Origin: Mactra quadrangularis
Lineage: Eukaryota; Mollusca; Bivalvia; Venerida; Mactridae
Direction of reading: 5' to 3'
DNA length: 64,000 nucleotides
Assembly (NCBI GenBank): GCA_025267735.1
Contig: CM046304.1
Location: 372,001-436,000, forward strand
The first letter of the stretch is position 1, and each line of letters starts with the position of its first letter. A program made the translations under genes and the position numbers. The notes beneath the pieces are model-generated. The model was given only the letters and a program-made list of their open reading frames with translations. It was not told where the DNA came from and did not search any database. Shown piece by piece: positions 7,701 through 62,508 of the stretch.

Positions 7701-10700
7701 TAATCTCCCTTTGTAATTTTGCATTAAAGTTTTTATGTTGGATATCTCTGTCATTTATGGTCAGATCTTGATGAAAATCAGGCTTTAATGTGGTTTCCTC
7801 ATTACATTTCTTGTATCAATAATAGGACTCAAATTGTATCTATAAGATTTCTCTATTTGTATTGAATTCTGTCGAATCATGTGTTTTTCAGTAAAAAAGG
7901 TGAAGTACTTGCCAGTATAAATGATTTTAGAATGAATACATGTTACCGACATAAACTAGGGACATTATTGATCGATAAATCATTTATAAAACTTCATGAA
8001 GATTCTATCGGAAGACAAACTGAAGTTGACTTACAGCAAGGTATAGTTGGTTGTTTCTCAATCTGATTAAAACCCGATCTAAAATTTTCTGCTCACCTAC
8101 TCGCTTATTTAGATCTGGCCATTTTTGAACGAAGGTCATGTTCAGGTGACCTTTTCTCATCATAATATTCATGACAAAATTGTTATGATTAGTAACTTGT
8201 TTACATCGTCTACGTCAGGCAGTTTGAAATAAGCGGTCCAATCGCAGACTGTGAATAATACCGCTATTAAATTAGCTTGCAAACCTTGGTCTAAAAATAG
8301 AAATTTTGGAATCAAAATGTTATTACTAGTGTTTTATCTAGATGAAAGTTACGCATTGATTAGTCAACATAAAGGTCATCTCGACATGACCCTCCATTTA
8401 GATCTTAGAGATCCTGTACGACAATGCTCTACAGGATATCTGTTTACAGAGATTGGTTGTTTCTATAAGCTTTTTACATGATATTTAGTCATTGCCTTAA
8501 ATTTTCACGAGCTCTTACCCAGGCACTGTGAAACATGACAGACCAACTGACAAATCCTGTAAAAAATAAAAGGTCTGTCTAGATCTGCAGGTTTACAGGA
8601 CAACTGTCCAGGAATAGAATTGATCCTATCCACATAGTATTCAATTTATTGAAATATATAAAATGTCTGAGGTCCTGTATGACTTGGTCTGGTCCTGTAA
8701 ACTTTAGATCTGCACAGGACCTATAGTTGTTAACTGTTGGGTTTTGTAGTGACTGCTCTTGTCCAATTTAAAGTGATGGGCTAAATTATCAACTAGCCTG
8801 GCCATTTTAACTTAAGCTGGTTGGCTGAATGCATTACCTTTCTCACCTTAGATGTTCTTTAATTATACCCCCATCGAAGAAGAGGGGGGTATACTGTTTT
8901 ACCCTTGTCCGTCCGTCCGCCCGTCCGTTACAAAATTTCCGTCGCAGTTTTCTCAGCAACTATATCATGCAGCAGCCTAATACTTTGCATATTGCTTCAT
9001 CCCATAGTCCCATGTGGTGTAAAGCGATTTCATGCTCCTTGCTCATCTACTTCCTGTTTGTCGCATATTTTTAGATTTTGGCATTAGCTCACAGATTTAC
9101 TTGTTCAATCCTGTTTAGGTGATTAGTTGTTCATTATAATACATTGTATATAAAAAACTCAATAAGGGACATTAGTCAGTTATTTCCCCTGGCATACTCT
9201 TTAAATAGGTAGGTGACCATAGGTCCAATCAGTTGGATTACTTATATTTTACCATTACTTTTCAATGGCAAATTGCCACAGTTAATCTTAAATAACATTT
9301 TCGTAAATAATTTAATCTAAATTTCATCACTCCTGTTGATATTTTAATTAACAAGAAAGATATTAGATGAAGTATTTTATTATCCTACTTAATAATCCGA
9401 GGATTTCAACTAATAGAACCTACTTACCAATAGGATTGCTTCAGATTTTATCAAGGAAAGATAACTGACAAAAGCCCCACCGTATTTTTACTTTTAATAT
9501 TGCATTTAATTTATTAAATATAAATATTATGAATATTACAGTAGACAATTTACCTGATACTAATACAGAAACAGAACAAAATATGGACATTGATGATCAT
9601 AATGATGGTAATGATTTTTTATAACATTTTATTAATTTTTTTACTCCCACAAGATAGAAGCAATTTGATTGAGCTGTTTTTAGATTTTTCAAAATTTTAG
9701 ATAATATAATTATAGGCACTGCCTATTGGTGGTCACTTATATATGGGCCATATATTTGGTTAACAATTAAATCTCCATTTTGCTAATGCTTCATTTTGCT
9801 TCGTTGCGTGTTTTAGTCATACAGTCATACCGTCCCATAATGCAACGAGTGGTAAGCACAGGAACCAGAAGAGTTCCGAACATGCAAATTTAATTTTAAA
9901 AAATGAAGGAATGTTAACTCCCTTTTATATGATTTTTAGAAGGACTAAAGGGAGGTAACTAGAAACTGGAAGCATTTTTACATTATAATGGCCTGCTAAG
10001 TTTTATAAACGTTTAGAAGAAGCAATTTTATGTTAGGCATAATCCATTTCAGTATGATATAGCAAGGGCTTTGAAGGAATACTGCTGTAAATAACAAATT
10101 TTCAAAAATGACTTTTTGATAAATTAACTTTAGAAATGCCAAATACATGTTCCTACCAAATTTCATCAAAATATTATTAATAAAGTACATAAATTTACTT
10201 AGTTCCATGTTCAGAATAACTCCAAATTTCAGTGGAAAAATGCTGTAAGAAAAAAAAACTTGTAAATTCACAATAATTAGTTTTTTAGCACAGTGTAATT
10301 ACATAAGACATGTTATTTCTTACCCACATATCAAAAAATAGTTACAGAATAACATGAGAGAAAAATGTTAAACAGTTTTTTGCTCCTCCTGAAAAAATTT
10401 GAAAATATGAGTTACGACAGTTTTCGTCAAGCCCTCATTATTTCAGGAAATGAGATGTGTGTTGATGATGGTGATAATGATGATGATTACAATGATGATA
10501 TTGGTGTTTTAAATGATATAAGTAATGGTGATTCTGATAATCAACCACAAACTGACGAGGTAAAGTCCACAGCTTTTTTTCAGTATTAGGGGAAGGGACT
10601 TTTCTTTATGTAGAACATTTAGGGAAATTTGATCGCAATTTCATAGATAGGGGAACAAAAATCCAAGGTAAACTCCATGATTTTTAAGAAATTTCAGGAG

Positions 10701-16700: not shown

Positions 16701-18745
16701 GACAAATATTAAAACATCAAAATTTGAATTCATTCCTGGCCCTACAATTTTTACTTGTCCTTGGCTTCGATCTAGTAGGTTAACTTAGGAAATGACTGTT
16801 GTTGAAAAGCCTTTGGGGGAGGGGCTCTAAAAAGTTAAATTCACAAGATTTTAAATATAACTCGTATAAACTCATTGTTTTATTTTTCTTCTATTTCACT
16901 CGACACAGATTTAGAAGACTGTACTGCTTATGAACAAATGGTACAGAAATATGTTGTAAGTATTGATCTAGATACTTTATCATGATATAATTATCGACGT
17001 TCCTCAACATCGATTTAAACAATTATCAAGATTTCAGCATTTTGTAGTTGTCACTGGTTGCCTTAAGCCAATTAAAACGATGCATTTGAGGTAACATGAT
17101 AAGAAAATAGCCATGAAGAAGAAAAAAAGGGGAGCATGAATGGACTCGTCTCCGTCATAAACAAGTCTGGCTAAAATCAAGCTGAATCATATAAATAGTG
17201 CCAAATGCTCATATAACAGAGTTATCTCTATAATTATATTGTGTGTGTTTTTTCAGCTTGATTTTATGAAAAGTGCTTAGAAATATGCTGGGTTTTTTTT
17301 TCAGGATGATTATATGAAAAGTGCTAAGAAATATGCTGGGTTTTTTTTCAGGATGATTATATGAAAAGTGCTAAGAAATATGCTGGGTTTTTTTTCAGGA
17401 TGATTATATGAAAAGTGCTAAGAAATATGCTGGGTTTTTTTTCAGGATGATTATATGAAAAGTGCTAAGAAATATGCTGGGTTTTTTTTCAGGATGATTA
17501 TATGAAAAGTGCTAAGAAATATGCTGGGTTTTTTTTCAGGATGATTATATGAAAAGTGCTAAGAAGTATGCTCATATAACAGAGTTATCTCGGAGGGTAT
17601 CAGAATGGGAAGATAAAGTTATACCACGACTAGAAGAGGAGGAGAATCATCCACCGTTTGATATCAATAATTATAGTACAAACATCATAGACGATCTTGA
17701 TGAAACTCGTACTATAAAATTTCAACAATTAGTTCAAGGAAAACCTTTATTTGAGATTTGTAGAACTTTTCTTGCTTCCTTGATGCTGGTGAGTGAATAC
17801 AATAGAACCTTCCCAAACCAGATCCCTCTCCAAACCAGACAAATTGTCCGGTCCGCATTTCTTTCCTATTTTTACCCCTCTAAACTGGATACCTCTGAAT
17901 TCCAGATACAACTTTTACAGAAATTTACTTCAATTTCAATGTAAATCTACCTCTGAAAACTGGACTTGGCGAGAATTACATTTAATTTGAACTTAGTGTG
18001 TTTAAGTTTTAAATATTGTTTAAATATAAACATCAATTTCTGTTAAAAATCACAGTTTTGGTACTGTGATGTCAAAGTTGATGAAATCAACTTTTCCTAT
18101 TGTTTATTCTTGTGTCTTATCCCCAGTCATCCATTTCAAAACATGACTCAGTTGCTAAATGGCTGCTTCTTAGGCCAAATTAAATGTCTCTTTTTTTTCA
18201 ATACCTAAATTCCCCTGTCCTTAAAGTTTTGTACTATGTTTTATTATTGCATTTTTGCAAGTCTCTTAAGTATTAAACCAGACATTCTGAAAAGTGTTTT
18301 GACATTACTGGACATTCGGTCCAGTGATCTTGGAAGAATCACTGGACCGAATCAGATTTCACTGGACTGGAAGAAATCATCAAAATGTCAATACGTCATG
18401 ACTTATCATTACTTTTTTTGGGTTGCTAATCAGTCATTACCATAACTTTTAACTGAGAACAAACATTAAAATTAGTTCAATACATACAAATAAATAAGAT
18501 AGAAAGGCCTATAGTTGTCCTCATTTTAATTTTAAAAAATGACATTTTACTGTTCCGCCAGTATTAAAGGTTCTTATATATACTCCATTATTACATTATT
18601 TCAGGCCAATACTACCAACGTAAGGATAAAAGAAAATCGTGAGTTAGCTGATGGAATGGATCAATTTGAATTAGAACTTTTATCAACTAGAAGACATTTT
18701 GAACAACTACAAGAATATGTAGCACCTTCATTGGTTGGAAAATAA
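4758..18745 (+). CDS. NCAPH2: Condensin-2 complex subunit H2 (NCAPH2), 16 coding exons
   Basis: Exons: 4758-4880, 5418-5575, 6468-6615, 7317-7396, 7892-8040, 9542-9607, 10447-10559, 11087-11152, 11501-11567, 12695-12805, 13345-13469, 13945-14035, 15703-15825, 16909-16955, 17540-17788, 18605-18745. All joins keep frame, giving 618 aa, close to the ~605 aa of vertebrate NCAPH2. Recognised blocks: N-terminal [20 protein letters not shown] and [27 protein letters not shown] (kleisin N-terminal SMC-binding region), [21 protein letters not shown], a basic centre, [11 protein letters not shown], then C-terminal [43 protein letters not shown] and [15 protein letters not shown] (winged-helix-like end). 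The family's role is kleisin of nuclear condensin II in mitotic chromosome compaction. Oddities: acidic linkers coded by GAT/AAT runs in several exons, and exon 15's acceptor is tandemly multiplied upstream. Confidence 0.95.
5062..5345. repeat. dispersed repeat, copy 2 of a ~280-bp pair
   Basis: Direct-orientation partner of 500-840, lying in NCAPH2 intron 1. Just upstream, 4975-5025 holds a short related stretch with ATCGAGAAATAAATATCGAT, resembling the element's internal ATAAATATC motif. Confidence 0.7.
6640..6885 (+). repeat. AGCCGG-family repeat (family D)
   Basis: Starts AGCCGGATTTTT, includes GTCAGATCTTTATG..ACTTCATACAATGATA and ACTCTACCTG, and ends GTGGTTTCCACATTACATTT. Six or more related copies lie in this window, all intronic (7485, 14075, 22563, 23446, 24140, 26150). 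Confidence 0.65.
7485..7825 (+). repeat. AGCCGG-family repeat (family D), longer copy
   Basis: In NCAPH2 intron 4. Starts AGCCAGATTTTTCAACG, carries the same GTCAGATCTT and GTGGTTTCCTCATTACATTT blocks as the 6640 copy, plus an extra GGATAATCTCCCTTTGTAAT segment. Confidence 0.65.
8059..8455 (+). mobile_element. MITE, CAATCT family, 397 bp with 9-bp target duplication
   Basis: Ends are CAATCTGATTAAAAC and, reverse-complemented, CAATCTCTGTAAACA, an imperfect terminal inverted repeat. It is flanked by exact 9-bp direct repeats GTTGTTTCT (8050-8058 and 8456-8464). The size and 9-bp duplication suggest a non-autonomous Mutator-like element. It sits 18 bp inside NCAPH2 intron 5, directly after the donor of exon 5. 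Related copies: 30357, 37929 and 49947. Confidence 0.85.
8866..9120. repeat. bivalve-type repeat with (GTCC)n end
   Basis: Contains TATACCCCCATCGAAGAAG facing GAGGGGGGTATAC (palindromic start), followed by CCTTGTCCGTCCGTCCGCCC. Ends of this type are familiar from bivalve repeats by general knowledge. The right border is uncertain. It lies in NCAPH2 intron 5. Confidence 0.5.
12161..12288. repeat. ~128-bp direct repeat, left copy
   Basis: Begins GAACTAGCCATCTTGTGGAA and ends GCACGGAACAG. It is repeated with modest divergence at 12532-12659, and the two copies exactly bracket an inverted-repeat element in NCAPH2 intron 9. Confidence 0.75.
12286..12533. mobile_element. 248-bp foldback MITE
   Basis: Long terminal inverted repeats of about 45 bp, starting CAGTGGTGCTTTTCAC and ending GTGAAAAGCACCACTG, continuing with AAAATTCTNACGAAAAAAA on each arm. 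Terminal CAGTGGTG is hAT-like, but no matching 8-bp target duplication was seen at its ends. Confidence 0.7.
12532..12659. repeat. ~128-bp direct repeat, right copy
   Basis: Partner of 12161-12288 in the same orientation, ending GCACAGAACAAG. Together with the MITE between them it forms a repeat-MITE-repeat unit just upstream of NCAPH2 exon 10. Confidence 0.75.
12891..13090 (+). repeat. tRNA-headed SINE, family C (head end)
   Basis: Head reads GCCCGGCTAGCTCAGTTGG (A box) and GTGAGTTCGATTCCCGGG (B box), like a tRNA gene. The anticodon arm does not form a clean cloverleaf and the unit continues into a non-tRNA body, so it is a tRNA-derived SINE and not a tRNA gene. Related to 37001, 55724, 27190 and 38985. 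Confidence 0.7.
13520..13760 (-). repeat. possible tRNA-derived repeat
   Basis: Read on the minus strand it has GAAGGGGAAATGGTAGAGTG (A-box-like) and GGGTTTTGAATCTCGGTTC (B-box-like) followed by body sequence. It is diverged and found once in this form. It lies in NCAPH2 intron 11. Confidence 0.4.
14075..14268 (+). repeat. AGCCGG-family repeat (family D), partial
   Basis: Carries AACATACCATGTGATGAACA, GTCAGATCTTGATG and GTGGTTTCCACATTACATTT as in the 6640 and 7485 copies, but lacks the 5' AGCCGG part. Confidence 0.6.
14442..15500 (+). repeat. AGCTCGAC element with six internal ~160-bp tandem units
   Basis: Left end AGCTCGACTTTACGAAG followed by a (GTCCGC)n-rich stretch; right end AAGTCGAGCATGCTGTCTCC then TGACAGCTCTTGTT. 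Between them the block CAACCACATCTCATGTGAC recurs at about 14619, 14803, 14965, 15119, 15280 and 15435, spaced 154-184 bp. The inverted AGCTCGACTT/AAGTCGAGC ends suggest a DNA element with an internal satellite-like core. It lies in NCAPH2 intron 12. Confidence 0.75.
15858..16060 (+). repeat. SINE family A, diverged copy
   Basis: Matches the family A body (AAAGGGGCAGTTATACCCTT, GACAATTATGTTGATTTTC, AGGTGAGTACTGGTTATAGA) with a degraded head. It lies in NCAPH2 intron 13. Confidence 0.55.
17258..17575 (+). repeat. 47-bp tandem repeat containing a 3' splice site and exon 15 start
   Basis: Units begin at 17305, 17352, 17399, 17446, 17493 and 17540, the last being the real start of NCAPH2 exon 15. 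A degenerate unit starts at 17258. Each 47-bp unit has 36 bases copying the exon start (coding [11 protein letters not shown]) and an 11-base poly-T/CAG acceptor. The copies are near identical, pointing to recent expansion or homogenisation. 47 is not a multiple of 3, so splicing to any upstream acceptor shifts frame and meets a stop soon after the next unit starts. Confidence 0.95.
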
Positions 18746-19560: not shown

Positions 19561-19567
19561 ATATACT

Positions 19568-19765
19568 CTTGCATAAAGGTCAAGCTCAGGTTAATATACT
19601 CTTGCATAAAGGTCAAGCTCAGGTTAATATATTCTTGCATAAAGGTCAAGCTCAGGTTAATATATTCTTGCATAAAGGTCAAGCTCAGGTTAATATATTC
19701 TTGCATAAAGGTCAAGCTCAGGTTAATATATTCTTGCATAAAGGCCAAGCTCAGGTTAATATTGT
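19568..19765. repeat. 33-bp minisatellite, six units
   Basis: Units start at 19568, 19601, 19634, 19667, 19700 and 19733 (CTTGCATAAAGGTCAAGCTC plus AGGTTAATATATT). The unit is 11 codons, so both strands stay open across the array. This looks like a repeat artefact and not a gene. A single diverged unit occurs in inverted orientation at 30247-30285 in a TTLL1 intron. Confidence 0.9.
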
Positions 19766-22380: not shown

Positions 22381-31573
<9,193 letters not shown>

Positions 31574-33932: not shown

Positions 33933-36900
33933 ATGATGTGTGCGTTACCGAGTCAGTCACAAGGTGGACCTCCTAAAAGAAAGGAGATATATAAATATGA
34001 GGCACCTTTGTGTGTATATAGCATGAACTGGAGTATTAGACCTGATAAAAGATTTAGATTAGCTCTTGGAAGTTTTGTGGAGGAGTATAATAATAAAGTA
34101 AGTAATTTTTTTTTGTTGGGGATAAACTTACCTTGTGTAGGAAATTCTTTGCAACAATAATGTCCTATAAGAATAAAATCAACCTTGCTCTGTATTAAAA
34201 ATTAAGATCCTAATGAAATTTATGCTGGATCTATATGTATGAAACCGCTGCGAATAGTGTTCATTAGGTCAACTCAGTGTGTATTATTATGATTGGTAAT
34301 TCCATACATGTAGAGACTGTTTTGTTGAACCAAATAAAAAAGATCGAAGACCACTACCCAACACCTTTAGCATAAAGTTTACTTGTGAATGCTTCATTCT
34401 ACACAGTTGTAAATTTGAACGTTTAGGGTTGCCAGTCTGAAGGTACTTTCCATGAACTCAGATTATCTTACTAAATTGTAAAGACCATCAACATTTACTA
34501 TTGTATATGGAATAATGAAATTAGACTTTAAAATTTTAAATGTTATGTCATATATATATGATAGTGTTGGGGTGATATTCTCGATGCATCGATACATCCT
34601 GATAGTGTATCGTGATAGTACCTCAAACTATCGATATATGATGATATCATGCTCAAATAAAGACTGAATACTCTTTTTGCGTTACATGTCAACTTCACGT
34701 TCTAATAATTGTACTTTTATATCTGTGTTCTTATGAGGAGAACATTCACCCTCAATTTTGACATAATTGAACAGTTAATACAACCACACTATTACTACAA
34801 TTTTAGATAGTTGTTTGCTTGCTTTTGTCTCCTTACAACCATTTGACATAAAGCATATAAACAATCTTTATGCATATCGTGATACAATGCTACTATCGTG
34901 ATACGTATCGTGATACAAACTAGCTGGCGATACCCAGCTCTAATATATGATATCCTGTTTTCAGGTACAAATTGTATCATTAGATGAAGATACTTCAGAA
35001 TTTACATCAAAAGGAACATTTGATCATCCTTATCCAACCACAAAAATTATGTTTATACCAGATACTGTAAGTTTTCTTCAGTTATTTCTTTTTTCTCTAT
35101 AAATAACCTCTAGTAAACAAAAGGTTAATTTTAGTGTACATAATTCATTGAAGTCAGAAGACTTTGCATACATAGTCCCACTGCACTGAAGAGTCCTGCC
35201 CCTTTTTGCTCACTGCCTTCTCTTTTTTGAGTTTAAGACTTATCTCTAGTTACAAGGACTTGACTCTTACAAATATTGTCTGGCCTAACTTGCTGAAGTT
35301 GTCCTGATTTAGAGGTTTTCTTTTACTCTAAAGCTTGATTAAATTCATGACTATGAGCCATCTTGATGAATTTAACCCAGCCCTAGGCCTGTCCATGGAC
35401 AGTAAATAAGTAAGAAACCTGACTGCCATGTTATAACTGAAAAAAATGAAATGCAACATAAGGCCACATCAAGTTGATCATATGTTCTACGGATTTTTCT
35501 GGGGGAAAAATGGGGCGAGCGAGCGGAGAAAAAAAATTAAAAAAGTCTTTATTCACTTGCTTTATATAGTGGTTTGACCAAATTTTTACGGGCGAGCGAG
35601 GAAATAAAAAATTTTTTTTGTAAAAAACGTCAAAATTAAGGTGCAAGCGAATCCATAGAACATATGATCAATTTGTTGTGGCCTAAAGCAACATAATTTT
35701 CTAATTACAGAAAGGGGTATTTCCTGATCTATTAGCTACTAGTGGTGATTATTTACGTGTTTGGAGAGTTGGTGATACTGAAACCAGATTAGAATGTCTA
35801 CTTAATAATGTAAGTATAGATTGTGTGTCTATGTGTGCATTCTGTTCCTGACTTATCATTTATTATATTCCGAATGCAGGTTTATGGGAAAAACCTCTGG
35901 ATATATCAGGTACAAAGGTGTGTTGCTAAATGGAAGCGATACTGTAAGATATGAACACATATTAGATTCTATTGTTCTCTGTTAGCATAAAAATCTATTT
36001 TCTTTGCAATAGTAAACTTATTTGTTAGTAAAATGAACTCAACTATTTATGATTTATTCCTGACTGTATTATAACAGTTTGATTAGCAATTTTACTAGTG
36101 CGATACAGTTTAGGTCATAGGTGCTATCGACTGCCTTTTTTCTCTGCAGAAAAAGGGCTATGATATCAGTTTCACTGTGTCTGTCTTTCCTGTTTCCTCA
36201 ACATTTTATATGTTTTAAATCAAACACTTTGTTTTAATATTTCAGAATAAAAATTCAGATTTTTGTGCACCATTAACATCATTTGATTGGAATGAAGTTG
36301 ATCCTAATTTACTTGGAACATCAAGTATTGATACAACATGTACGATATGGGGATTAGAGGTACTTATATTTACATTTATGATATTTTATAGCCCGAGGAA
36401 TTAAGATTATTCAAACCAGTTGTCAACTATTGTTTATGTAAGCTTTTGAAAATAGAGTAAAACATTAGAAAAATAACAAATCAGTACAGTTTTTTTTTTG
36501 TCATGGTTGAATGTATCCTAATTTATCTTTTATACTGGGTTTAACGCTGTTTCAACACAAATTAAGGTCGTTTTATTGTGGCCAGTGCATCTAACATAGC
36601 TTTTCTAGACCCTTGTCTATAAAATGTTCTCACCTACCTTTCCACATGGCCAACAGCTTCTCTATATAACTTATTAATGGTGAAAAATTGACATTATTGT
36701 CAAATACTTAATTGATTAACTTGTAGATTTATATAACTGACAGGTGAAGTTCTAGGACGTGTTAATAACTTGTATATTTATATTACAGACAGGTCAAGTT
36801 CTAGGACATGTTAATAACTTGTATATTTATATTACAGACAGGCCAAGTTCTAGGACGTGTTAATGTCGTATCCGGACATGTAAAAACTCAACTTATAGCA

Positions 36901-39647
36901 CATGATAAAGAGGTTTATGATATAGCGTTCAGTAGAGCTGGTGGAGGTAGAGATATGTTTGCTAGTGTTGGTAGGTTTTGTTATATATTTTATTAGCTGT
37001 CCGGCTAGCTCAGTTGGTAGCACACAAGTCTACTTATCAAGGGGACATTGGTTCGAATCCCAGGCTGTGGCATACTTTAATGGAGTTTAGATATGGCCAT
37101 TCTCTTTCTTTCCACTTATTCTATATCATGTAAGGCATCTACTTGGTTTGCTCTGACAGTAATAGGTCTGGATGTGTATGCAATGGTTGTTGGTTTGAAT
37201 CGGGCTGAAACTTCCAACCTTTGTAGGACTGTGAATCCTGAGGTTGTGGGTTTGAACCTTTGGCAGGATCTTCCCACCTTTGTAGAGTTTGACAGTCTTT
37301 GCTTTCTCAAGAACTCTTCAGATTTATTATATTACAAAGTAAAAGGTAAAATTATCAACTAGTCTGACTCTAGAAAAAGGTAATTTTCATTATTGTGAAT
37401 CAATTTTCATTAGTTCTGGGCTTAGGGATTGTGGATTGAGGCAATGACTGTTTGGTCATGTGCTAGTATAAGACTTAGTGACTGTATTAAAATAAAATTA
37501 CATTGCTAGTGTGATAAATTATACATAGCTTGTGTCTTGGTGGATGGCTACTGAAACTTTCGTCATAAAACGGACGTCACACACAAATGACAAAATAAGA
37601 ACCTTAGGGGTTTTAATAAGAACTTAAGGGGTTACCACCACAAAATGAACAATGGCAGAACAATTGTAAAATGGTATGATATTGTTTGTGTTATATATTT
37701 CAGGGGCTGATGGTTCAGTCAGAATGTTTGATTTAAGACATTTAGAACATTCTACTATTATATATGAAGATCCACAACATCATCCATTGTTAAGACTTGG
37801 TTGGAATAAACAAGATCCTAATTATCTTGCTACCATGGCAATGGATGCTTTAGAGGTAAAAATATACATGTGTCATCTATAAATACCTTTCAATTTTTGT
37901 TAATTCCATTTTTGTTAATGTTTGATTTCTATCTGATTAAAACCCGATCTAAAATTTTACACTCGCATACTCGCTAACGAATTCATAATATTCATGACGA
38001 AATTGTTATGATACGTAACTTGTTTACATTGCTTACGTCACGCAATTTGAAATGAGCCGCCCAATCGCAGACTGTGAATAATACTGCTGTTACATAAGCA
38101 TAAAAACTGTCTGGTACATATTTTACATTTAACATCTACATGTATATTCAATTATCTGAAAGAATAAGTGCTATGTTCTATTTTTGTTTGTATTGGTCTT
38201 AATCATACTTCGGTTCATATTTGCTGTATCATTGCCTCTCTATGTCACGCCACCAACACGTAGGGACCACAATGGAAATAAGGGTTTGCCCTTTTTTGTG
38301 TTATCCCTGGTGTTGGTGTGCCTGTCATAGCTTATTACTTGTCACATGCTATGTAATATGTTTATTGTAATTATGCTATGTGTATACTATGCCTAATAAA
38401 TATTATTATTATTATTATTATTATTATTTGCAAACCTTGGTCTAAAAATAGAAATTACGAAATCAAAATGTGTTTAATAGTGTTTTTGTCCAGATGAAAG
38501 CTACGCATTGATTGGTCGACACATAGTTCATCTCGACGTGACCTTCCACAGAGAAAGTAGAGAGCCTGTACCACAACGCTCTACAGGATATCTGTTTATG
38601 GAGAGTGCCCACACCCCTGCTATACACTAAGAAAATCTTGAGAACTGTTATCACTCATATGCGAATGACGCAAAACTTGATTATTGTCATGTCTGCAAGT
38701 CCTGTGCACCAAAATTGAAAATCTATTTTGGAATTATTCCCCTTGAATTATAAGACAACCTGTCTACCCACAGGGTTCAGATTTTGTAAAAGTGGTATAT
38801 CAGCCTATTTGTATAACCAATGTTTGTGTTTTCAGGTAATAATCTTAGATGTAAGAGTACCATGTACGCCTGTAGCAAGATTAAATAATCATAGAGCTTG
38901 TGTTAATGGTATAGCCTGGGCTCCTCATTCCAGTTGTCATATTTGTACTGCTGGTAAGTTACATATCTTTATTTTATTTTTATTTTGTTGGGTTTAACGC
39001 GGCAGCAACACATTGTACAGGTTATATCACGGCGGTCAGTCAACCTACTCTCTGTTCCTGGAAAGGCTAAATCTGTGGATTTATCTGTTAACCAACGTGT
39101 TGGCATAACACTTTTCTAGTTTCTAGGTGCAACTTTTTTAGATCTTTCTTATCTTTGAAACCAAAGAAGGGATTTACTTGATTTTCATGCATGTTTTCAG
39201 AGTTACCAATGAAGGTCAGATCTTAAGTTGCGTTACTCTAGCATAAATTTAACTTAGTTACGACCCTTCTTTACTTAAGAAAATCTTGATTTTTATTGCT
39301 GCATTTTATCTTTGCAACTATTGGAGGGATTCAAGCATAATTGTGAAAATAGGTCATGTTTATGTGGATTTTTGTCAATATTTTTTAAAAAAGCCCAACT
39401 TCGGCTCCAATTTATGGCAAAAAATCATTGTCAATGAATAACAATTGTAACTAGATAATATAATTGTATTTCAGCTGATGACCATCAAGCCTTGATCTGG
39501 GACATACAGCAAATGCCACGTGCTATAGAAGACCCAATACTTGCATATACTGCCGCCGGAGAAATTAACCAAATACAGTGGTCGTCTACACAGCCTGACT
39601 GGATTGCTATCTGCTATAATAACTGTCTGGAAATCTTACGTGTGTGA
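33933..39647 (+). CDS. DCAF7: DCAF7 / WDR68 WD40 protein, 8 coding exons
   Basis: Exons: 33933-34097, 34965-35066, 35711-35809, 36246-36359, 36838-36970, 37704-37855, 38836-38953, 39475-39647, all GT-AG and in phase, 351 aa (human 342). The protein is almost alignable by eye with vertebrate DCAF7: [195 protein letters not shown], stop. The family is a seven-blade WD40 scaffold bound by DYRK1A/HIPK2 kinases and by DDB1-CUL4. Exon 6's acceptor and 5' end are present three times in tandem. Either ATG 33933 or 33936 could start. Confidence 0.97.
34561..34956. mobile_element. possible MITE with ATCGTGATAC repeats
   Basis: Many TATCGTGATA / ATCGATA motifs concentrated at both ends (34575-34650 and 34875-34945), in inverted relation, similar in style to the 48915 element. 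Borders and target duplication not resolved. It lies in DCAF7 intron before exon 34965. Confidence 0.45.
36533..36712 (-). repeat. SINE family A, 3' part
   Basis: GGGTTTAACGCTGTTTCAAC, TCACCTACCTTTCCACATGG and TGACATTATTGTCAAAT match the other family A copies. The tRNA-like head is missing. Confidence 0.65.
36740..36864 (+). repeat. 49-bp tandem repeat containing a 3' splice site and DCAF7 exon 6 start
   Basis: Units start at 36740, 36789 and 36838 (the real exon start). Each has 27 bases copying the exon (ACAGGTCAAGTTCTAGGACR plus TGTTAAT) and a 22-base stretch ending TTATATTACAG. The first unit is preceded by CTG instead of CAG. 49 is not a multiple of 3, so use of the upstream acceptor would shift frame. 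Confidence 0.93.
37001..37090 (+). repeat. tRNA-headed SINE, family C, head end
   Basis: TGTCCGGCTAGCTCAGTTGG (A box) and TTGGTTCGAATCCCAGG (B box) followed by GGCATACTTTAATGGAG. Compare 12891. Downstream boundary uncertain. Confidence 0.7.
37929..38607 (+). mobile_element. MITE, CAATCT family, interrupted by a retroposon end
   Basis: Left part 37929-38097 (CTATCTGATTAAAACCCGAT onward) and right part from about 38429 (GCAAACCTTGGTC to GTTTATGGAGAGTG) together match 8059-8455 with internal losses. No clear 9-bp duplication. It begins 74 bp after the DCAF7 exon 7 donor. Confidence 0.75.
38098..38428 (+). mobile_element. 3' end of a non-LTR retrotransposon inserted in the MITE
   Basis: A ~330-bp non-coding stretch ending GCCTAATAAATATTATTATT and a (TTA)n tail. 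Its removal reunites the two MITE halves. The shape is that of a 5'-truncated retroposon 3' UTR; clade unknown. Confidence 0.6.
38985..39105 (-). repeat. SINE family C, 3' part
   Basis: GTTGGGTTTAACGCGGCAGC, GGCGGTCAGTCAACCTACTC and GGAAAGGCTAAATCTGTGGA match 55724. Truncated before the head. Confidence 0.65.
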
Positions 39648-41194: not shown

Positions 41195-41580
41195 TGTAAC
41201 CCCTTGGCCACACCCACTCCTAGAATGGTATCCACTTGGCCACACCCACTCCTAGAACAGTAACCTCTTGGCCACACCCACTCCTAGAACCGTAACTTCT
41301 TGGCCTCAATCACTCCTAGACAGTAACCCTAGGTCAAACCCACTCCTAGAACCGTAACCACTTGGCCACACCCGCTCTTAGACAGTAACCCTTGGTCAAA
41401 CCCACTCCTAGAACCGTAACCACTTGGCCACACCCACTCCTAGAACCGTAACCTTTTGGCCACACCCACTCCTAGACCGGTAACCCCTTTGTTACACTAA
41501 CTCCTTGAACAGTAAGCCCTTGACCACACCCACTCCTAGTAGGTAACCACCTGGCCACACACACTCCTAGAATGGTTATT
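41195..41580. repeat. ~30-bp minisatellite
   Basis: About 12-13 imperfect units of CTTGGCCACACCCACTCCTA plus GAACCGTAAC, with length variants. Located in the DCAF7-MYG1 tail-to-tail spacer. Confidence 0.9.
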
Positions 41581-57500: not shown

Positions 57501-60500
57501 TGATCTGTTGTCATTTATTGAACTTGAAGTTCATTTTGCTTTTGGAATAAAATTTCTATAATGAGAACTCTCAGAGTCTTACTGTGTTGAATAATGGTTA
57601 ATGATTGAATCTTGTATTAGTGAAAGCTGAACAAAAAAAATGTGAATGTTTTCTGTAGTGTTTTTTTTTGTGATTATCTTCATATTCTCACTTATAAAAA
57701 AATCCATTTTGAAACATAATTTATACCAAATGTTGCATATTTAAACATTTGATGAGAAGTCAATACAGTTTTAACAGTTTATATCAGACAATCTATTGTA
57801 TTTTGGTAGATCGGATGATTTTCAGTCATCAGACTGATGTGTTATGGGGAAAGTATATGTAATTCATAGTGATTATTCTAGAACTCCAAAAAGGGCAGGG
57901 TGGGACCAAAAAAGGGCAGGGCGCACCGCGCGGCGCGACTTTTAAAATTCTGAAGTATATCTGTAGTCAATAACATTTAGTGAACTGATGTTTTTAGTAT
58001 ATTATTTATATATTCAATGTAGCTGCATGCTCAACAAGTTCTTACATGCTTTTCTATAATCATGTACTTGTGCACAAATTTACTTAGCATAGTTGTAAAA
58101 CATACTTTTGTGTCAAATCTTTAGCTATTTAAAAGTCCAAAAAGGGTGGCAAGATTTGAAACAAATCGTTTTCACTAGATACAAGCTCCGTCTCTACCAT
58201 GATCTCTAACTTTAAGTGGCCACCTCTAGAAACTTATGTAGAAGAACAAGAACCAGACTTATGATATTCTATAAAATTGTCTATAATCTTATTGGTATAC
58301 ACCCTGGCCCTGCCTTATTCATACCCAACACATAAAAAACAAGACAAGACAATGTTCAGCAGCCATCTCCATTCATTTTAACATATAAGCATGTACAAAT
58401 ATTGCTGAAATCAATAAATTCGCTTTTTATTTTGTGTTCGTTTTTTTCCTGCAAAATATTGGGGTGCAAAACGATTTGCTAATATACGATTTTTCTATAA
58501 AATCGTTCAATCAGATAAAGAAAGCATCAAATGTAATTAAACTTTAAATTTGTCAGCAGGGAGGGAGTGCATTATTCTCTAAGAAATAGAGGAAGCCATT
58601 GCTTAAATCATTCAATTTGCACTTTACCTTTTTGTTTTTCTGCAAAATATTGGGTTGCAAAACGATTTGCTAAAATACGATTTTCTATAAAATTGTTTAT
58701 TCAGCTTAAGAAAGCATCAAATGTAATTTATGTAAATAATTATTGTGAAAACTGTTCTTGAGCTACTTTGTACCAGAAAAAACTAATATGTCCCGTTTGA
58801 CAAGTGAAAAACGATCAATACAAAACATCGTCAGTATCAAATCGTTCTGCACCCCAAAAAATGTAACGGATAGCAAATTCTCGTTTCTGTATTTTTTACA
58901 AATCCTGCGGGGGACAATTGTTTTGTATATCATAATATGTCCAAGTAAATTGCAATTTACATCACATTCGTCCACTAGAAATAACAAAAAACCCGCTAAT
59001 TGCACAGAATGGTTTGGTCATCAGTGTCAATTTAATCCTTGACGCGTATAGGTACCTGACTGTATATATGTATATTGACGTTGTCAAGCGTGTTACAGGC
59101 ATACCCTAACAACCGCCTTATTGATTTTTTCACTGCCCTTTCACAGTAGGCGTGTCATTTAATTACTGATTGATAAAGATTATACAATTGACGTGTGAAT
59201 TTACTGATGATTGACAATTATGAAAATATTTTTGAACGGAATTAAAGGGCAACAGGGCGCTTTGAAACTCGCAGGGCGGGACTTTTAGGACAGCAGGGCG
59301 GGGCTAAAAAAGGGCAGGGCGCGGCGCCCTGCTATTCTGCTTTAGAAAAATCACTAAATTCAGTAAATTCATGGACCATTGTATAAAAGAATGAGTTGCT
59401 TTGTTATATGCTGTTCAAGTACTAAAAGAACAAAACATATCAACAATGTTATCTTTCACAAATTTCCTAAAGATTCTGTGCTGTATGAGAAATGGTTGAG
59501 AGCCATTAAGAATCATGAAGAACAGTGTTGTAGCGATGACTCTATAAGTCACGATCGTAAAGTGTTTACTAATTCACGATTGTGCTCACTTCATTTTACT
59601 GAATTGGATTATATGAATACTGGGCCAACCAAACCTTATCTTAAACTCGAAGCTATCCCCTCAGTATGGCATCTACAGATACAGTCTGGTGTCTCATTTA
59701 AACTATCAGAGGTATACTCAGTTTTTAGTTGTGAAGTTCTCGGGGAATTAACTCGGGTTGGACACTATCAGGGTTCCAGGATCTTGAGGATGCTTAAAAC
59801 TTTGGAGGAATCCCTGAGATTGTTAATTAGGGATTTTGTATGGATCCGTATAAAGTGTCCTGCTCTTAAAAGAGTTTCAGTTCCAATGAATTGTTTAACA
59901 CAGTTTGTGATTGAAAATCTGTATCTAAAATATGTGTCTATAATTGTAGGAATTCCTAATGATAAGAGGGAATCTTGGGAAAACTGACAAAGGTTCCCTC
60001 TAGATCCCAGGTAGATAATGCATTAATGTTGTATAAGTTAAAAACGTGATAAACTTCTCATAATGATAAAATTTTGTTAAAACAATGCTCCAGTTATCTA
60101 TAACTAGCACCTACCCTACCATCCCTCCAGCAACCGGGGGGGGGGGGGAGGCAATACTGGTGATCTAATTAAGGTGTACTCATATGCCTTGCTAAGAAGA
60201 GGTTTCAAACCAGGTGTTATGATGGGGGATTATTCTAGAACTTTGAAAATGTCAGGGAGGCAAACAGGGGTTGGGTGCATCATAGGATTGATGTTGAATT
60301 ATTTGTGTATAGATTGGAGCAAAAAAAGGGGATAGAATAGAAAGCAAAAAGACAGGAATTGCTATTTAGCTTTTGAATAAACACAAAATAAGAAAGCTGG
60401 GAACAAATGTACTAGCTTAGCTGCACATTACCAAAATATTCAGTAAGAGGTAGAAGTTCCTTAAAACATGCACTTTTGGTCTGATATTATACTTGCTACA

Positions 60501-62508
60501 TGACAATTATATAACGCGGACCAATAGCGCCGGGATTTGGATACTTGTGCCCGAGGGGGTGCGCAGCGGGTTCGAATTCCACCCGGGAAGGTTATACCCT
60601 TCCATGAAAATTTGACAATAATGTTGATTTTCCTCCATTGATTAGATAATATGGAGAAGTTTCCCGCCTTGTGGTAGGGTAGGTGAGTTCTGGTTATAGA
60701 CAATGGTCCAGGAAAGCTAGGTTAGGTGCGCTGGACGTCGTAAAATGGCCTAAATTGTGTTGACACGGTGTTAACTGCAATAAATAATAAATATGACAAT
60801 TATATTTTCATATTTTCTATTTTCAGGTGACAAGAAAAGCTAACGAAGTTCTTCAGGTAGACAAAGTATTCTGTAACACAGAGATAGGTGACAATCTGGA
60901 GTCAGACTTGAATGAGTTAGAATCTGAGAAATTACAACTAAATACTTGTAAGCATGTTTCAATACAAATAGTCCAATTTTAAATTTATACTAATTTATTT
61001 TAGCTTGATTGTGAAACAAGTTCATACAACTTAGATGCATCACTTATGAGTCCCCTTTGTGCTCCCCCAGAACTGAGCTAGTAGGATAAAAGTTACTTGC
61101 TCAAGGAAACAACAGGGTAGGATTGGATGGGATTTGCTATACAATGATTACCAGTCCAGCGCCATAAATAGTTCAATTTCAATACTGTTGTCAGAGTATA
61201 TAGGCACAAGACTTTTAGATTGTAAATAAGCACCATCAAATTTTTGCAACAGTCAAAGAATAGGAAAGATTAATCAAAGCACATTAAAATAACAGCAACA
61301 AGTCTCTTTTCTCTCCTTCTTGCCCTTTTTTCTCCACCCTATGCAGTTATTTCAAAACATTAAACATTTGACCCACTGTGCTCCTTTTTTCTGCCACCAT
61401 GCCCTTTTTATTGAGATCTAAAATAATCACTTATTACATGTATATATTTACAGTAGACAAGATGGCCACAAAGACAGAGAGTTCGATATATAATTTTAAT
61501 AGTGACATTGATCTAGATGATATTATTAACTCTGCTATAGCCGACCTCTGTAACGATGAAAATAATTTTGTTTTTACTGACTGTGAGAAAGATGTCAAGA
61601 AACTAGAATCTTCTATAAAACTGGTAGAAAGTAAGTATGGTTTTATTTCTAGTTACATGGGGTTTCCCCATGTTTAGTAGTGGACTGTGGCAAATCCACA
61701 TCAAAATTTGTCGAGGACGAATACATTTCGTTGTGCACGCGCAAATAAAGGGATAATTACCACTGCAATTAATATAGTCCGCATTACCCGTTAACAAGCA
61801 GACGATAAGAAGCATGTGTATATCTTATCTGGTTTATGTAAGGTTAAGGTGCCTTGTATCGCTGGCCCGCTTCCATGAGTTGTATACATTAATATACTCT
61901 ACTAAAACCCCATGTCTGATAGCGCTATCGGCGCTTTGATTTGATTATTTGACAAAGAGATGATATTTGTTTGTTTTATTGGTGCAAGATAGATTTTTAT
62001 TTCACGAGTGATTTTTATTTCATGAGTAAGCTGAGAATGCAATAAGTGGTGTAGCCACAAGTGAAAACTTGATATCCTTAGCACACATGTGAAAAAGACT
62101 AAGCTCTTATGGTGACTGGAGAAGGTGTAGGTTCAAATCTTAATTCTACTATGAATTTTTAACGGGTTACATTTGGTGCCACCATAAATAACACAGGAGG
62201 AATTGTGTGATTGCACATGTAGATTGTCTCACAGACATTCAAACTTTAAGAAGAGGTATAATATGGCAGTTGTACTCCCTTGTCTTCAAGCTAGCTTTTA
62301 TGGCAACGGGGTCTGCTTCAGAACTTAGAGGTGGTAGGTCTGAATCTTTGTTTGAATCATTGGTTTTTATCTGGTTACACACTTAACTATAATATATATA
62401 ATGTATTATTTCAGGACAACAAAAGAATATCAATCATATATTATCAGATTGTATGAATAAACTTGATTCATTTAAAGATACTTTAGAAGATGAACATAGA
62501 GTCGCCAA
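54559..62508 (+). CDS. THAP-domain protein, isoform A (upstream THAP), partial at 3' end
   Basis: Exons 54559-54695, 55299-55491, 60827-60947, 61454-61630, 62415-62508, all GT-AG and in phase; 240 codons plus 2 bases, ending at a donor so the gene continues past the window. Residues 24-105 form a THAP zinc finger: C24-x4-C29, HHFPNK (45-50), W60, C78-SE-H81-F, and A100-VPTIF, the AVPTIF box. The tail (from residue 111) is acidic and helix-prone: VTRKANEVLQVDK, LESDLNELESEKLQL, IDLDDIINSAIADL, INHILSDCMNKLDSFKDTLE. THAP proteins bind DNA through this C2CH finger and often carry a C-terminal coiled coil. The specific THAP family member was not recognised. The second THAP exon at 59391 lies inside intron 2 of this form. 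Confidence 0.85.
55590..56095. repeat. TGCTGATTTAAATAC repeat split by a family C SINE
   Basis: Left part 55600-55690 (TCATACATTAACCCTGCTGA) and right part 56035-56095 (TTTTTAAATCAGCTGGGTGA) flank the SINE at 55724-56018, suggesting the SINE inserted into an older copy. In intron 2 of the THAP gene. Confidence 0.5.
55724..56018 (-). repeat. tRNA-headed SINE, family C, full length
   Basis: Reverse orientation. GGGTTTAACGCCGTAGCAAC at the tail side, body AGGCTAAATCTCTGGATTCA and GGAATGGAATCCATGACCCC (B box), head CCAGCTGAGCTAGCCAG. The best complete copy of the family here. Confidence 0.78.
57880..59345. repeat. segment flanked by GC-rich GGGCAGGGCG direct repeats
   Basis: Left 57890-57945 contains AAAAAGGGCAGGG twice and CACCGCGCGGCGCGAC. 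Right 59245-59335 contains CAGGGCG several times, AAAAAAGGGCAGGGCGC and the palindrome AGGGCGCGGCGCCCT. Between them is AT-rich DNA with two ~95-bp direct copies (58440-58535, 58625-58725) of GCAAAATATTGGGTTGCAAA-type sequence and an inverted echo near 58835-58860. No coding region seen. Confidence 0.55.
59391..59711 (+). CDS. alternative first coding exon with a second THAP domain (isoform B)
   Basis: One exon encodes a complete THAP finger in 107 residues: C3-x4-C8, HKFPKD (23-28), W35, C65-SL-H68-F, and A88-IPSVW in place of AVPTIF. A donor at 59711/59712 (TCAGAG/GTATAC) ends the exon in phase 0, the same phase at which exon 60827 begins. The peptide would then run SFKLSE-VTRKANEV into the shared tail. 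Past the donor the frame stays open to 59987 with low-complexity-free but unrecognised sequence, so an unspliced 199-aa product from ATG 59391 is possible too. Spacing FHxFP..W and CxxH match the upstream THAP but the sequences differ widely, so this is an old duplication or an independent THAP gene nested in the intron. Confidence 0.72.
60512..60790 (+). repeat. tRNA-headed SINE, family A
   Basis: Head ACGCGGACCAATAGCGCCGG, B box GGGTTCGAATTCCACCC, body GAAGTTTCCCGCCTTGTGG and GGTTAGGTGCGCTGGACG, tail AATAAATAATAAAT. It ends about 36 bp before the shared THAP-gene exon at 60827. Confidence 0.78.

Follow-up and report, generated by a model that had tools for sequence, protein, structure and literature searches.

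The window, the whole 64-kb stretch of DNA analysed here (G000:C12:372001-436000, in a 979-Mb bivalve genome), encodes NCAPH2 on its forward strand. Among the 120 homologues listed, the best is that of Mactra antiquata (E 5.5e-202), which is 62% identical to a 492-aa draft query across 71% of its length. The gene matches both CNDH2_N and CNDH2_C, the latter (Pfam accession PF16858) at E 1.6e-41 on three joined exons. We placed its exons by tblastn with bivalve homologues. The exon at 16909-16955 (+), located by sequence reading and by tblastn with Mactra antiquata P0001, begins with a split codon, ends in phase 0 and is followed by a GTAAGT donor. The next exon (17540-17788, +, 249 nt) precedes a GTGAGT donor; one intron separates it from the last coding exon (18605-18745, +), which carries the normal stop. 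Of two candidates scored in a genome search with the protein of the 249-nt exon, one passes E ≤ 0.001, and no second haplotig or close paralogue was found.

Upstream of this exon, its 3' splice site and first 33 nt are repeated in tandem. TRF run on the window reports the array at 17248-17572 (period 47, 6.9 copies, 97% matches, score 606), which confirms the tandem repeat of acceptor and exon start proposed in an earlier, sequence-only reading of this DNA. Five identical 47-bp units occupy 17305-17539 (+, with starts at 17305, 17352, 17399, 17446 and 17493). Each consists of a 33-nt exon copy and the 14 intron-derived nucleotides GGGTTTTTTTTCAG, and the exon copies carry a single mismatch to the true exon (AAA in the units versus AAG). 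The sequence-only reading had made the exon-derived part slightly too long, at 36 nt. The six acceptor positions that it listed, the five unit starts and 17540, are all correct as first exon bases; to these we add a seventh, diverged acceptor at 17257. The 48-bp unit that begins there (17257-17304, +) is preceded by the acceptor TTTTTTCAG, contains an in-frame TAG after seven codons and ends in T9, before the next CAG. A 26-mer from the array has six exact matches at exact 47-bp spacing, the only ones reported in the 979-Mb genome, where the reversed pattern has no match; this arrangement is far beyond chance. The interior units are homogeneous and the end units diverged, and the identity of the five units implies that they are either young or homogenised.

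An older, degenerate relic of the exon start, which closes with a 24-nt exact match to 17568-17591, lies further upstream (17177-17228, +). A perfect inverted repeat of 15 bp has a 5' arm at 17172-17186 (+) and a 3' arm at 17252-17266 (+) that spans the first acceptor (17257) and its exon start. The relic and the hairpin together suggest that the locus seems to have been duplicated more than once. The folding of the inverted repeat (z -2.29, with 3 of 200 shuffles folding equally well) hints weakly that the 5' arm could pair with and hide acceptor 17257; across the 64 kb, equally close 14-mer inverted repeats number six with this one included. RNA structure across the array was not significant (z -1.1). 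Of the four exon-part changes by which the first unit differs from the others, three lie in the 3' arm, and the inverted repeat (17172-17266) is possibly the product of a template-switch mutation. Past the end of NCAPH2 lies another minisatellite (19561-19762, 33 bp x 6.1, 98%), and a further one is found at 41196-41572 (32 bp x 11.9).

Homologous proteins indicate which acceptor is likely to be used. Mactra antiquata NCAPH2 crosses the junction without an insertion, as the product of the last acceptor would, and two further bivalve homologues also align straight into 17540, which fits 17540 as the working acceptor. Homology searches and tblastn agree with the earlier identification of the gene, the exon and the acceptors. 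Each of the six upstream acceptors runs into an early stop, after 19 codons for five copies and after seven for 17257 (predicted product LDFMKSA-stop). This bears out the earlier claim that choosing an upstream copy terminates translation, and corrects its premise that the frame always shifts: acceptor 17399 lies 141 nt upstream, a multiple of 3. The early stops fall 237-509 nt before the end of the 17540-17788 exon (counted to 17787). With one more intron downstream, transcripts spliced to upstream copies are predicted targets of nonsense-mediated decay (NMD) by the usual junction rule, which is known mainly from vertebrates.

The array also constrains how the correct acceptor could be chosen. 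Acceptors 17352, 17399, 17446 and 17493 match 17540 over 58, 105, 152 and 199 nt upstream, respectively, and over 26 nt downstream. With at least 58 nt upstream and 26 nt downstream shared by five acceptors, local strength cannot tell them apart. If the array splices to its last copy, the choice must rest on wider context, for instance the exon body and donor. TGCTAAG also occurs in the repeated exon text, its A some 24 nt ahead of the next AG; compared with the branch-point consensus, this is a possible branch point that every unit would supply.

Boundary repeats of this type are not specific to NCAPH2. A second case in the window lies in DCAF7 (named by tblastn with a DCAF7 query), where a tandem-repeat search and reading identify three 49-bp copies of an acceptor and 26 nt of exon (36717-36864, +). 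Both upstream copies give an early stop, and one has no AG at the boundary. Upstream copies are found at only 2 of the 21 internal exons of NCAPH2 and DCAF7, one in each gene, and no shared element behind the two repeats was apparent by eye. A tRNA-like stretch (GGCTAGCTCAGTTGGTAGC...GGTTCGAATCC; 37000-37070), SINE-like by eye, directly follows the DCAF7 exon. The window also holds a dispersed repeat with a similar open frame on both strands (2615-2896, 22695-22907, 27036-27254 and 60461-60721) and an open frame at 59367-59987 in which the piece searched matches a THAP domain (Pfam accession PF05485, E 1.8e-15).

The 200 kb adjoining the window contain an EDEM-like gene (GH47, Pfam accession PF01532, E 1.7e-66; EDEM1 chain 8zpw, E 2.3e-49) with two further arrays, for which exon edges are approximate. 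The first is a 95-bp duplication around C12:280148-280342. The second, assigned by reading to the exon that starts near C12:278819, comprises at least five additional acceptor copies upstream of it. A stricter scan of 264 kb missed the DCAF7 array and both EDEM arrays, which were recovered by relaxed scans, a period list and reading. Candidates at C12:331050, 338404-338862, 340697 and 345191 were among those set aside by eye, several of them inside long open frames.

We also surveyed every Myosin_head match in the genome listing, 80 in all, and applied one detector to 411 bp around each match start; some matches resemble pseudogenes or near-identical copies, and all 80 were kept. Six of the 80 starts have a repeat, which in four reaches the acceptor (L039, L086, L089 and L096). 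The same detector found none in 80 randomised acceptor-side sequences. L039 is a weak two-copy case, with copies 98 bp apart, 83% identical over 41 nt and sharing 7 nt of exon. Longer stretches, with the authentic copy counted, reveal 22 copies (21 extra) at one myosin exon versus one in its paralogue, and 16 copies at another versus at least 14, interrupted by a long insertion, in its paralogue. These exons and their paralogues are on C3 (L108 164-1012; L111 956, reverse strand; L109 179-836; L110, reverse strand). One array is thus absent from its paralogue and the other is present in both. The exons with 21 and 0 extra copies differ at 7 of 146 nt, all synonymous, and encode an identical protein, so the array has recently either grown or collapsed in the other copy. 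A tRNA-like stretch similar to that near DCAF7 lies reversed before one myosin array (L108, about 40-115).

Donors can be affected as well. Around the ends of the 80 myosin matches (411 bp, same detector) we found nine repeats, two of which span the donor; these are 95-bp repeats across the donor (CTCAG|GTAAATATAAG) of a myosin-like exon at the paralogous loci L157 and L168. Acceptor-spanning repeats total 8 of 111 (4 of the 31 acceptors of the three C12 genes and 4 of the 80 myosin exon starts), and donor-spanning repeats 2 of 110 (0 of 30 in the C12 genes and the two paralogous cases among 80 match ends). These totals leave uncounted intron-internal repeats that stop short of the splice site, namely two of the six acceptor-side loci (L056 and L060), seven of the nine on the donor side and, in NCAPH2, one in the intron that precedes the exon at 7892. 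An excess at acceptors over donors was considered and is not significant (Fisher p 0.10, or p 0.17 for 7/110 versus 2/110 when the ascertained NCAPH2 exon is set aside). Boundary-spanning repeats occur in unrelated genes of this genome.

The eight acceptor arrays hold 6, 2, 1, 5, 21, 15, 13 and 1 extra copies, and all 64 upstream copies give an early stop. Two of the 64 have no boundary AG, and one more, at the edge of L110, was not assessable. Comparison of upstream copies with the true exon in six arrays, two of them paralogous, yields 17 synonymous and 14 non-synonymous distinct variants (17/31), where 6.1 synonymous variants are expected (P 1.7e-5), or 8.4 when transitions carry a weight of 4 (P 1.0e-3). 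The second EDEM array and L039 share too little exon text for this test and did not enter it. With the three variants common to all upstream copies dropped, 14 of 28 are synonymous (P 3e-4 to 8e-3). The excess stems from EDEM and the myosin exon with paralogous arrays; NCAPH2 contributes one synonymous and four non-synonymous variants. It reads as if upstream copies were repeatedly seeded from an exon under selection, that is, as turnover. In none of the eight arrays is the last spacing divisible by 3 (47, 49, 95, 40, 43, 44, 41 and 98), an outcome with a chance of about 4-6% by simple arithmetic, two of the arrays being paralogous. This regularity may hint that selection acts against in-frame insertions or in favour of NMD, and it counts against a neutral reading.

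We consider it highly probable (roughly 85%) that the NCAPH2 array is a boundary minisatellite of the type called 'mirage' in amphioxus, a tandem duplication with quick turnover that is tolerated since the exon-proximal copy is used. Such an array would have arisen by tandem duplication followed by re-expansion. Its upstream copies would act as intron, with the spliceosome mostly taking the exon-proximal acceptor, presumably through exon definition that involves the intact body of the exon and its downstream donor. Transcripts from stray upstream use would be removed by NMD. Because of exon-proximal use and decay of the strays, the array would be nearly neutral, its copy number free to change by slippage or unequal exchange. 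Neutral slippage and a dose switch had both been proposed for this locus. We favour neutral tandem duplication because unrelated genes share such repeats, myosin paralogues differ by 21 versus 0 extra copies, the NCAPH2 units are identical, and RT-PCR suggested regular splicing of amphioxus mirages (PMC3087553).

The array might alternatively tune dosage passively, the number of decoy acceptors lowering the productive fraction of transcripts without regulation. The analogy is the 25-bp donor-holding VNTR in intron 18 of human ABCA7 (about 12-427 copies), which is linked with splicing and expression; longer VNTRs there are associated with reduced expression and increased skipping of exon 19 (PMC5954066). 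Since repeat length there accompanies changed splicing and expression, a dosage effect may exist here too. However, retention of ABCA7 repeat units, the event nearest to decoy choice, is described as unaffected by VNTR length (PMC5954066), and the myosin exon with 21 extra copies encodes a protein identical to that of its single-copy paralogue. We regard passive tuning as very unlikely. A broader version, in which decoy splice-site arrays form a widespread, fast-mutating dial whose copy number sets the productive mRNA share of core genes such as NCAPH2, is quite improbable; if true, it would imply heritable, perhaps somatic, variation in dose.

A regulated switch, in which conditional use of upstream acceptors would produce NMD targets and reduce condensin II, could draw on the early stops at all six upstream acceptors, 237-509 nt before the next junction, and on the identical local sequence of five of them. 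Yet similar architecture occurs in the unrelated DCAF7, EDEM-like and myosin genes, copy number is free to vary (21 extra copies in one myosin paralogue, 0 in the other), the NCAPH2 units are recent or homogenised, and amphioxus mirages are reported not to perturb regular splicing (PMC3087553). We found nothing positive for such a switch and consider it very unlikely. That the true genome is single-copy here and the five identical units an assembly artefact is scarcely credible, given end units that differ (a 48-bp first unit and AAG in the exon), an array of 0.33 kb in a 45.6-Mb contig, and arrays with diverged copies elsewhere in the genome.

The NCAPH2 array suggests that boundary-spanning repeats, described in the papers cited here as amphioxus 'mirages', are recurrent in a bivalve. 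We found no report of molluscan mirages in the open-licence literature, which does not prove their absence in print. Arrays with long identical acceptor stretches offer a natural test of first-AG scanning against exon definition, because local strength cannot decide and the winning acceptor therefore reveals which of the two operates. They further illustrate how an intron can lengthen by taking over duplicated exon sequence, and they pose a hazard to gene annotation.

Several known systems combine tandem repeats with splice sites. In the human interferon-induced gene 6-16 (IFI6), a minisatellite contains repeated donor sites, where NCAPH2 repeats the acceptor. The ABCA7 VNTR is alike in that its unit holds a splice site and that unit retention, in the cited part of the study, leads to a frameshift and premature stop; it differs in repeating a donor, in 25-bp units, where NCAPH2 repeats an acceptor (PMC5954066). 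Introns can be gained by tandem duplication of exon sequence that bears splice signals, and NMD may shelter weak splicing, according to the cited portions of two papers (PMC2891723, PMC2809761). At NCAPH2, in contrast, it is the 3' end of an existing intron that expands, and no new intron was seen.

The closest counterparts are the amphioxus mirage minisatellites, described in the cited excerpts for Adh3 and the globins BflGb6 and BflGb9 (PMC3087553) and for TnC, together with similar imperfect repeats in PGBD5 (PMC3902484). The arrays reported here differ in occurring in a bivalve, in being described from genomic DNA, in the 47-bp unit of NCAPH2 (versus the 10-72 and 150-160 bp reported) and in copy number, which at one myosin exon is as high as 21 extra. 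They resemble mirages, as far as the excerpts describe these, in units that span the 3' end of an intron and the start of an exon (or the end of an exon and the start of an intron), and in duplication of both 3' and 5' boundaries within one genome (8/111 and 2/110 here). In both, the authentic boundary lies at the edge of the array, as its outermost copy, adjoining the body of the exon (here 17540). Many copies keep intact splice signals, and the homogenised interior of the array resembles that of amphioxus mirages, whose ends are reported as diverged or excluded (PMC3087553).
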